From Oscillospiraceae bacterium (GTDB lineage Bacteria > Bacillota > Clostridia > HGM11514): a DNA stretch of 38,464 nt. The stretch covers positions 1 through 38,464 of the forward strand of contig SVJP01000005.1 in the NCBI GenBank assembly GCA_015068925.1. The letters run 5' to 3'. Below, piece by piece: positions 2,089-34,431 of this stretch. Position 1 is the stretch's first letter. Each line of letters opens with the position of its first letter. The translations under genes and the position numbers were made by a program. A model generated the notes under the pieces. That model saw only the letters and a program-made list of their open reading frames with translations. It made no database searches and was not told the DNA's origin.

Positions 2089-2379
2089 TGTAGCAAAATG
2101 AATTTCATTTACTACGGCTCCTTTGGGGTGGACGGAAAATAGCACAGATTGGACAAACTGAGCCAACAAAGCCCATTTCAAGGGCTTTGTTGGGTTACCC
2201 GAAGGCGTACGTAGGTACGTCGAGAGGCGAAGTTTGTTCAAAACACAAGGCATTTTATCATCGAAATTCGTCATTTGACGAATTTCTTCCTTAAGTTTTT
2301 CTTTATTTTGATTTATCGGATGCATTAAAAGGCTTTGTTAAGCGATTTTTGCCTTGTGTGGTGTGTGCATTTTGCTACA
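2089..2379. mobile_element. MITE-like element, copy 1 (291 bp, 12-bp perfect terminal inverted repeats)
   Basis: TGTAGCAAAATG at 2089-2100 and CATTTTGCTACA at 2368-2379; internal hairpins CAACAAAGCCC/GGGCTTTGTTG, CGTAC-GTAG-GTACG, GAAATTCGTC/GACGAATTTC; homologous to 9599-10157. Confidence 0.75.
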
Positions 2380-9581: not shown

Positions 9582-9598
9582 ATCAGTACTATAAGACC

Positions 9599-10157
9599 TG
9601 TAGTAAAATAATTTATGCTATCGCCCCGGATCGTTTCAGGGTGGGAGAAAAACAGTGCAGAATGGACAAAACGAGCAAAAGCAAGGGATTCCCTTGCTTC
9701 AGCCTGTCGATAAACCTATCGACAGGCTGGCAGACCAAGAAAAAGGAAGGGATATTTTGTCAAAATGAATCGCAGACAGTACGTTGGTACGGCAAGTGTT
9801 CATTTTGGCAAAAAGCAAGTAACCGTCTGGGAAATTCAATATTTTCCAGACGGTTTTTTACGGTTTTATTATAGATGAAACATCCATAATTCAATCTTTT
9901 TTCCTTTTGTGTGCTTGCGGTAGACCGACTTTTTCGACGGTCAGAAGCAAGGGATTCCCTTGCTTTTGGTTACCCGAAGCCGTATGTGGATACGACGAGA
10001 GGTGAGTTTTGTTCATAGCGCATAGCATTCATTGAAATGAAATTCGTTGTATCACGAATTTTTACCTCTTGTTTTCTGTTATTTGTGAAACTTTAGTTTG
10101 TCTGAAAGGCTTGAATAAAGGGTTTTTTGCTTTGTGCGATCTGTGCATTTTGTTACA
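9599..10157. mobile_element. MITE-like element, copy 2, split by a nested insertion
   Basis: Terminal repeats TGTAGTAAAAT (9599) and ATTTTGTTACA (ending 10157); flanks GAGC[hairpin]GGTTACCCGAAG match copy 1; 559 bp minus 245-bp insert and 21-bp duplication = 293 bp, close to 291 bp in copy 1. Confidence 0.72.
9700..9944. mobile_element. 245-bp nested hairpin-rich insertion flanked by a 21-bp direct repeat
   Basis: AAGCAAGGGATTCCCTTGCTT exact at 9679-9699 and 9945-9965; right half closely matches window positions 1-127. Confidence 0.68.
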
Positions 10158-10175
10158 CCCTCTATGTGATCAAGA

Positions 10176-28079: not shown

Positions 28080-29591
28080 ATGAAACAGTTGATGAGTTTA
28101 ATTATTCTGGATGGTTTTGGAATCAATAATGCAGAATCGGGCAACGCCATTCATTCTGCAAAAACTCCCAATTTGGATGCCTTGTTCCAAAAATATCCTC
28201 ACACCCAAATTGCCGCAAGCGGTATGGATGTAGGATTGCCTGACGGGCAGATGGGAAATTCCGAGGTTGGTCACACCAATATCGGTGCAGGAAGAATTGT
28301 ATATCAGGAATTGACCCGTATCACCAAATCCATTCAGGATGGAGATATGTTTGAAAATCCTGATTTAAAAAGTGCAATGCAAAATTGTATTGAGAAAGGT
28401 ACTGCCTTGCATCTTTTAGGATTGTTGTCTGACGGCGGCGTGCACAGTCATAACACTCACCTGTATGCCTTGATTGAAATGGCAAAGAAAATGGGTGTAA
28501 AGGATATCTGGGTGCATTGTTTCCTGGATGGCAGAGACGTACCCCCTCAGAGCGGTAAGGATTTTGTTCAGGAATTGCAGGAAAAATTGGAAGAAATCGG
28601 TGCAGGTAAGGTGGCAACCGTCATGGGTCGTTACTATGCTATGGACCGTGACAACCGTTGGGAACGCGTTGAAAAAGCTTATGACGCGATGGTAAAAGCA
28701 GAAGGAATCAAGGTTCCCTGTCCCGTTTGTGCCGTTGCAAATTCTTACAAGGAAGAAGTAACCGACGAATTTGTAGTGCCTGCAGTAGTAGAAGGCTTTG
28801 AAGGCATCAAGGAAAATGATTCCATGATTTTCTTTAACTTCCGTCCTGACCGCGCAAGAGAAATTACCAGAACCTTTGTAGACCCCGAGTTTGACGGATT
28901 TGAACGGGAATATTTCCCTGTTCAGTATGTGTGCATGACCCAGTATGATGCTGCAATGCCCAATGTGTCCGTTGCCTACAAGCCCGAAAGCTTAACCGAT
29001 ACCTTCGGAGAATATATCAGCAAGAAGGGACTAAAACAGCTCCGTATTGCTGAAACGGAAAAATATGCCCATGTTACCTTCTTCTTTAATGGCGGCGTAG
29101 AAAAAACCTATGAAGGAGAAAGCCGAATCCTGGTGAATTCTCCCAAGGTTGCCACTTATGATTTACAACCTGAAATGAGTGCTTACGAAGTAACCGAAAA
29201 GGTGTGCGAGCAAATCAGAAGCGGAGAATTGGATGTGATCATCTTAAACTTTGCAAACTGCGACATGGTTGGTCATACCGGTGTGTTTGAAGCGGCAGTT
29301 GCAGCAGTAGAAGCGGTTGACACATGCGTTGGCAAAGTAATGGATGAAATTGAAAAGGTAAACGGAATTGCAATCATTACCGCTGACCACGGAAATGCTG
29401 ATTGCATGGTGGATGACACCACAGGCGGACCCTTTACCGCCCATACCACTAACCCCGTTCCCTTGCTCCTCAATCAGAAGGATGCCAAGCTGAAGGAAGG
29501 CAGACTTGCCGATATTGCTCCCACCATGCTTGACTTGATGGGACTGGAAAAGCCTGCATCCATGACGGGTGAATCTTTGTTAATGAAATAA
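28080..29591 (+). CDS. gpmI: 2,3-bisphosphoglycerate-independent phosphoglycerate mutase
   Basis: [51 protein letters not shown]. Confidence 0.98.
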
Positions 29592-29606
29592 GAATTGAAA
29601 AAACGA

Positions 29607-31136: not shown

Positions 31137-31219
31137 CCGATATTGCTCCTACCATGCTTGACTTGATGTGGCTGGAAAAGCCTGCATCCATGACGGGTGA
31201 ATCTTTGTTAATGAAATAA
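31137..31219 (+). pseudogene. Duplicated gpmI 3' end (83 bp, 80 identical)
   Basis: CCGATATTGCTC..ACCATGCTTGACTTGATG..CTGGAAAAGCCTGCATCCATGACGGGTGAATCTTTGTTAATGAAATAA matches 29509-29591 with 3 mismatches. Confidence 0.95.
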
Positions 31220-31247
31220 AAAAAGTCCGAAACAGAAAAAAAGAAAG

Positions 31248-32930: not shown

Positions 32931-33128
32931 AAGTGCCTATGCACCGAGCAGTGAAACTTAAGCTGCAAGCACAAACGAGAAACCAAGAAAACATGATTTT
33001 TGTTTTCTGTTTTGAGTTTAGCGGAGCTGCTTAAGTGAGCGACCGAGAGGGGCTGGAGGCATGACAAAGAAGTGCCTGTGCACCGCTTTAGTGGACGGGC
33101 AGGGAAAGTAAGCCGTGAGCAAAGCTAT
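32931..33128 (+). repeat. GGGGCATAAGCC family repeat, copy B, plus a partial second unit (putative structured leader RNA)
   Basis: AAGTGCCTATGCACCG...AGTGAAACTTAAGCTGCAAGCACAA...GCGGAGCTGCTTAAGTGAGCGACCGAGAGGGGCTGGAGGC...AAGTGCCTGTGCACCG; starts just after TATAAT at 32920-32925. Confidence 0.7.
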
Positions 33129-34222: not shown

Positions 34223-34375
34223 CGGGGCATAAGCCTTTCTCTGTCCGGCATCCAGCCCCTCTCGGCCACTCACTTAAGCAGCTCCGCTAAGCTCAAAACA
34301 GAAACCTACGATTTCTTCGGTTTCTCCCTTGTGCTTGCAGCTTAAGTTTCGTTGTTCGGGGCATAAGCCTTTCTT
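34223..34375 (-). repeat. GGGGCATAAGCC family repeat, copy C (minus orientation)
   Basis: Reverse complement aligns with copy B over most of its length (GAAACTTAAGCTGCAAGCACAA, TTAGCGGAGCTGCTTAAGTGAG, CCGAGAGGGGCTGGA). Confidence 0.8.
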
Positions 34376-34402
34376 TTCGAAAATTTTTCGAAACCAAATC
34401 TA

Positions 34403-34431
34403 TTGACAAAGAACTGAAAAAAGATTATAAT
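34403..34431 (+). promoter_or_regulatory. Promoter of the MFS gene
   Basis: TTGACA 34403-34408, 17 nt, TATAAT 34426-34431. Confidence 0.8.

Follow-up and report, generated by a model that had tools for sequence, protein, structure and literature searches.

Insertion of IS1272 and TnSha1, which belong to the IS1182 family, is directed to hairpins and terminators whatever their sequence; the hairpin is removed and no target duplication is produced (PMC5678879, PMC4923244). In the model proposed for IS1272, a duplication of the whole stem-loop is also drawn, as alternative pathway (b) (PMC5678879). We have analyzed a window of 38,464 nucleotides from an Oscillospiraceae bacterium (contig C75 of a 2.18 Mb genome in 220 contigs), in which two copies of a small repeat, element A, are found together with a second repeat, element B, that interrupts one of them. 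Like IS1272 and TnSha1, element A stands, at one locus, where orthologues have a terminator hairpin and shows no target duplication; like pathway (b), element B shows duplication of a whole stem-loop and has IS1182-type ends. Unlike those systems, both A and B are without a transposase gene, the ends of A differ, and IS1182 transposases are missing from most A-rich genomes; neither of the two papers cited describes a conserved folded core for these elements.

Other small repeats offer a partial parallel. The pneumococcal BOX, RUP and SPRITE repeats, as presented in the passages of PMC3049150 consulted, are similarly small, multi-copy and non-coding, with folded predicted transcripts, and they also provide examples of an optional module (boxB), of a repeat nested in a repeat, and of a terminator-like sequence (SPRITE) at gene ends; their sequence, taxa and ends differ from those found here, and those passages do not mention hairpin replacement. 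REP/BIME sequences, which are linked to RAYT (Y1) transposases, are also high-copy hairpin repeats between genes, judging from the abstract of PMC2817692, but the core of A is not a REP palindrome and the occurrence of A is not matched by that of Y1 transposases. Small repeats and hairpin-directed insertion are known as such; the family reported here appears to be new, and its folded module undescribed.

Results

Layout of the two copies

Both copies lie on the + strand. Copy 1 extends from 2084 to 2384, and thus is longer than in the original prediction, which had recognized the element from the sequence but drawn its limits too tightly. It begins with a terminator-like 5' terminal hairpin (GGAGCTGTAGCAAAATG..CATTTACTACGGCTCC, 2084-2121), with A and T tracts on either side; the left terminal inverted repeat coincides with the left arm of this hairpin. 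The hairpin is followed by the 5' strand of a closing stem, P0 (GGGGTGGACGGAAAATAGCACA, 2125-2146), which has its partner in the 3' end of the element. The conserved folded core (2149-2241) consists of P1 (strands 2149-2159/2231-2241), a tandem GA, the P2 hairpin (CAACAAAGCCC-ATTTCAA-GGGCTTTGTTG, 2164-2192, with arms 2164-2174 and 2182-2192), the segment GGTTACCCGAAG, the P3 hairpin (GGCGTAC-GTAG-GTACGTC, 2204-2221) and the segment CGAGAGG. In the 3' arm (2243-2359) a stem P4 (ACACAAGGCA/TGCCTTGTGT) surrounds a further hairpin at 2263-2286, which matches its earlier description. The right end (CATTTTGCTACACCCCC, 2368-2384) serves both as the right terminal inverted repeat and as the 3' strand of P0; a convergent P-type ATPase gene has its stop codon about 13 bp away. 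In two distant genera (2384-2399 in the window; locus L314, G137:C19) a gene for a copper-type P-type ATPase is followed immediately, at its 3' end, by an A element.

Several features of a MITE are present in copy 1: it is short (about 300 bp, within the 240-300 bp typical of A), devoid of long open reading frames, and represented by 23 core matches in its own genome, and its terminal inverted repeats (2081-2100/2368-2387) are 90% complementary over 20 nt. A target duplication of 2-9 nt is a feature that A does not share, as it was found in none of 38 parsed copies.

Copy 2 extends from 9598 to 10162. Its left half (9598-9699) contains a degenerate 5' hairpin, the 5' strand of P1 (9663-9672) and a first P2 (9677-9699); its right half (9945-10162) contains a duplicate of P2 (9945-9967), GGTTACCCGAAG (9968-9979), P3 (9979-9996), the 3' strand of P1 (10006-10015) and the right end (10146-10162). 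The two copies of this P2 (AAAAGCAAGGG..CCCTTGCTTTT) flank an insert at 9700-9944, which is element B. As originally noticed, the P2 hairpins of copies 1 and 2, both located between GAGC and GGTTACCCGAAG, differ in sequence and have arms of 11 bp each when copy 2 is joined across the insert.

Repeats of other kinds also occur in the window. A direct repeat of 95% identity (29509-29594 and 31137-31222) is formed by the 3' end of what is apparently a phosphoglycerate mutase gene (28080-29591); the intervening 1.5 kb or so includes two HTH genes, and the arrangement resembles that of a small element that has integrated at the end of a gene. Another repeat family (CGGGGCATAAGCCTTTCTCTGT...) has direct and inverted copies at 161-199, 302-403, 33004-33085 and 34223-34431.

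Structure and covariation of the core

About 20 relatives of element A were found in the same genome with a BLAST-type search; they share the order P1, GAGC, P2, GGTTACCCGAAG, P3, GAGAGG, P1', as read directly from the sequences. When a hand-written structure was applied to the own-genome alignment, 91.5% of the pair cells contained standard pairs, versus 39-47% if the partners were slid, and 14 of 28 pairs had changed on both sides. In an independent set, consisting of forms without P2, 93.2% of the cells were paired and both sides had changed in 13 of 21 pairs.

We have also scanned all column pairs in a sequence-only alignment of 104 non-redundant cores by means of an APC-corrected G statistic that ignores kinship among the copies. 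With this statistic the eight strongest covarying pairs all fall inside the proposed helices: P3 and P1 contribute three each, and the P1 extension and P2 one each. Standard pairs account for 86-99% of their cells, and the top-scoring pair is fully compensatory (GC 37, GT 36, CG 20, TA 5, AT 4). Between the two copies of the window, the covariation of P3 noticed originally holds (GGCGTAC/GTACGTC versus GCCGTAT/ATACGAC), in a stem of 7 rather than 5 bp. Within individual copies, P0 pairing amounts to 5.58 of 6 positions, and it falls to 5.08 ± 0.07 when the copies are permuted (n = 52).

G-U cells outnumber A-C cells by 160 to 27, which identifies the + strand as the selected one. Read on this strand, the core comprises P1, a tandem G.A, ACC/GGU, a purine-rich internal loop CGAA/GAGA, and P3, while the element is closed by the long stem P0, in front of which stands the terminator-like hairpin. 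The most conserved segments of all, CCCGAAG and CGAGAGG, are single-stranded. Conserved structure with covariation on one strand is what is expected of a functional non-coding RNA. Selection on structure, one of the two readings that the original prediction had offered, is well supported by these comparisons of sequence: the covariation reaches into helices far beyond P2, and strand-specific G-U pairs and conserved unpaired nucleotides point in the same direction.

P2 across the family

P2 behaves differently from the rest of the core. Among 103 distinct P2 segments from related loci, which include more than 60 arm sequences, the arms range from 2 to 14 bp, where single values may be off by 1-2 bases due to the mechanical nature of the parser. 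Another 26 copies could not be parsed, of which some 20 are 80-nt forms that have no P2 and the remainder are truncated or divergent. Together with the 5' hairpin, P2 is the most sequence-variable part of element A. It is therefore an optional side hairpin of any sequence and any length, and the equal arm length in copies 1 and 2, which had been taken as something that is kept, is a coincidence. The tabulation of arm lengths had been chosen beforehand as the test of arm replacement, with random lengths counting against it, and on this test the strong form of that reading fails. As a hairpin so free in sequence and length accounts for the apparent "replacement", no special arm-swapping process has to be invoked.

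The P2 types of the window are not confined to it either. The type of copy 1, CAACAAAGCCC, is present also in a sheep-gut MAG (L104, which carries CCAACAAAGCC), and that of copy 2, AAAAGCAAGG, also in L173 (genome G202) and in a goat MAG (L161). Since both types recur in other species, copies 1 and 2 represent old sub-lineages, for which an arm-replacement process is not needed. The two sequences are unrelated to each other as stated originally, but the type AAAAGC is shared by about 14 cores of the same genome.

Distribution of element A

No second genome from the same family or order was present in the sampled set, and therefore the searches were carried out at the level of the class Clostridia. 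With a covariance model the core of A was found 23 times in its own genome. Of the 291 Clostridia genomes sampled, 46 gave matches, which represent 28 of 180 genera, and many of the positive genomes have at least 13 copies. A pattern scan of named genomes returned at least 118 matching stretches; among the matches listed, nearly all are from ruminant-gut Clostridia or Oscillospiraceae MAGs. When the window and a set of diverse loci were compared with Rfam 15, no convincing match over the core was obtained at gathering or permissive thresholds; sub-threshold hits (to miRNA, RsaE and L20 leader models) scored far below gathering. A search of the open-licence literature did not find a description of the family. 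Element A is apparently an undescribed, large family of small non-coding mobile repeats in gut Clostridia. An A-type core sequence with a different P1 was also seen in a MAG labelled as Helicobacteraceae GH11 (L075, L081, L091), for which transfer, a mislabelled bin and convergence are alternatives.

Insertion sites of element A

Element A is found at the 3' ends of genes, preferentially where two genes converge: 42 of 77 gaps with the element (55%) are convergent, against a background of 21 of 171 gaps without it (12%), and only 1 of 77 is divergent, against 51 of 171. The right-hand neighbour is convergent in 67 of the 77 gaps, and the distance from the end of the core to its stop codon has a median of 142 nt (IQR 132-151), which places the stop just past the end of the element.

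Clean boundaries without duplication were seen in G137 and G052. In the 38 parsed copies the flanks consist of 62% A on the left and 54% T on the right; their pair-specific complementarity is weak, with p = 0.005 if no offsets are used and 0.068 once these are allowed. At one orthologous locus the element is present in G202, and simple hairpins (AAAAAGACACCGAAACG..CGTGTCGGTGCCTTTT and AAAAAAGCACCTTATCCGGTGCTTTTTT) occupy the same place in G060 and G160, behind an identical or almost identical flank, (C)CGATAAAA. This single locus is consistent with the replacement of a terminator hairpin as in IS1272. In a second orthologous comparison, of G102 with G172, G008 and G046, a remnant of A was found in G008 at the same gene end.

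Head-to-tail tandem arrays of A also occur (L226 1-1010 in G046:C27; L178; L227 in G197:C63; L016/L017 in G000:C185), with units of about 234-243 bp and, in the G046 arrays, an inverted left end only in the first unit; hairpin replacement does not account for them. In some A elements (L295 and L312 in G052, L314 and L298 in G137) a longer hairpin-rich sequence, which probably represents further nested repeats, interrupts the core or takes its place.

The search for a mobilizer of A gave negative results. A search for an autonomous partner, based on A ends without a core, returned diverged, deleted or further-interrupted copies and no transposase, and a conserved neighbour gene was discarded as a partner because no recurrent protein family was found among the genes adjacent to A. 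A non-autonomous element of IS1182 type was considered and rejected, as the IS1182 domain PF05598 is present in just 1 of 15 A-rich genomes and absent in the other 14. The same applies to an IS200/IS605 or REP (Y1/HUH) element, because the Y1 transposase PF01797 does not track with A, being absent in the A-rich genomes G046, G103 and G149 and present in many A-free ones.

Element B and its target hairpins

Element B, the "insert" of copy 2, is about 243 bp long and has more than 40 copies in its own genome. In the window, on the + strand, it consists of a 5' hairpin (9700-9729), a core-like stem (9757-9769/9799-9811), a strong hairpin with a T run (9821-9859) and a right end (9927-9944). A second, truncated copy, also on the + strand, occupies positions 1-128, with the hairpin AATCATTCAAC-AAA-GTTGAATGATT directly after its right end.

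In general, B lies in hairpins, with a whole copy of the hairpin on each side (ACCGAATGCCCTCATTGGCATTCGGT in L240 is an example). Of 43 B ends, 84% abut a hairpin with 8 or more pairs, versus 21% of random sites. In 7 of the 8 copies for which both ends are known, the hairpins on the two sides are identical or have diverged slightly. The duplicated hairpin is 21-30 bp long (window 9700-9944 and 1-128; L240, L241, L245, L259, L014). Elements of type A are themselves among the targets, either in their 5' hairpin (L005/L031) or in P2 (L014 and copy 2 of the window). It can be concluded that the whole P2 hairpin of copy 2 was duplicated when B inserted in it, which is hairpin-targeted transposition and not an exchange of arms.

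The IS1182-like terminal repeat CAGACYGTCGAAAAAG is present at the right end of B (CAGACCGTCGAAAAAGTC) and at loci L283 (CAGACTGTCGAAAAAGTCC) and L270 (CAGACTGTCGAAAAAGC). L283 is 93% identical to the IS1182 transposase of L270, and B-type ends occur on both of these transposase loci and, in degenerate form, on L268, a truncated copy and the only IS1182 locus of the own genome. All three loci are also flanked by hairpins, which differ between the two sides in L283 and L268. B is probably a non-autonomous element of IS1182 type.

A link between A and B is suggested by their cores. By eye, the B core CGCAGAC-AGTACGTTGGTACG-GCAAGTG resembles G137 variants, CCCGCAG-CTGTATGAGATACAG-CAAGTGG, and a series of elements in goat-gut MAGs (L076, L085, L150, L164 and others) combine IS1182-type ends with an A-type core; each of these directly follows a terminator hairpin. 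We infer that the two cores share common descent.

Discussion

Taken as a whole, these results are in our opinion likely to be explained by a mobile A family that has a folded core and an optional, unconstrained P2, that takes the place of terminators, and one copy of which was later entered by element B. The explanation put forward originally, an active replacement of both P2 arms by hairpin exchange, palindrome extension or inversion, appears very improbable. It could draw on the gain and loss of P2 as a unit, as seen in the 80-nt and long forms, and on the fact that P2 is hit by an element that targets hairpins, but B duplicates hairpins and does not swap them, sequences intermediate between P2 types exist, and neither the spread of arm lengths nor the presence of both P2 types in other species agrees with it. 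A purely mutational origin is also quite unlikely. In template switching during replication (quasi-palindrome correction) one arm is rewritten from the other, which would keep the arms paired as their sequence drifts, with no need for selection, and such events act on local palindromes such as P2 and the 5' hairpin, the very parts in which sequence varies most; yet template switching would not produce the excess of G-U over A-C cells, and it is at odds with the covariation of P1 and P0, which are long-range stems, and with the finding that the two single-stranded segments are the most conserved.

The nature of the folded molecule is a separate matter. The selected structure might be single-stranded DNA instead of RNA, with the folded + strand acting as the substrate of a mobilizing enzyme or of a replication-linked transposition. 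The strand bias is equally compatible with G-T pairs, no obvious promoter was seen between the 5' hairpin and the core, head-to-tail arrays are present, and HUH Y1 transposases occur in many A-rich genomes. We regard this alternative as unlikely, because the distribution of PF01797 described above does not follow that of A and because the ends of the element resemble those of DDE-type elements.

According to the explanation that we favor, element A would, like IS1272, take the place of terminator hairpins as it spreads, and would itself supply a terminator, so that its insertion may be nearly harmless. Conservation of the core would reflect the action of a folded molecule, most likely RNA, which aids the spread of the element or its tolerance by the host. 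P2 would lie outside the part that is recognized, and thus at most its pairing would be constrained; copies 1 and 2 would descend from two old sub-lineages rather than from a swap of arms. In a later step B, with its IS1182-type ends and distantly similar core, would have entered the P2 of copy 2 with duplication of the whole hairpin. A broader proposal, which we advance only tentatively, is that the core represents a novel class of folded RNA that aids hairpin-targeted transposition or guards the host against the loss of the replaced terminator. It would be found across the Clostridia in small mobile elements of at least three groups, which differ in their ends (TGTAGCAAAATG, GGGRATGTAAAAAAAG and the IS1182-type CAGCGTGTCGATAAA).

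One folded module occurs in dozens of copies per genome in about one sixth of the sampled Clostridia genomes and has no entry in Rfam; a common part of the intergenic DNA of gut bacteria thus appears to be undescribed. As element A takes over terminators between convergent genes, it may determine where many transcripts end. Finally, with A and B together, a single genome displays both proposed outcomes of hairpin-directed insertion, replacement and duplication of the whole hairpin, which makes this mode of insertion testable by comparative genomics.
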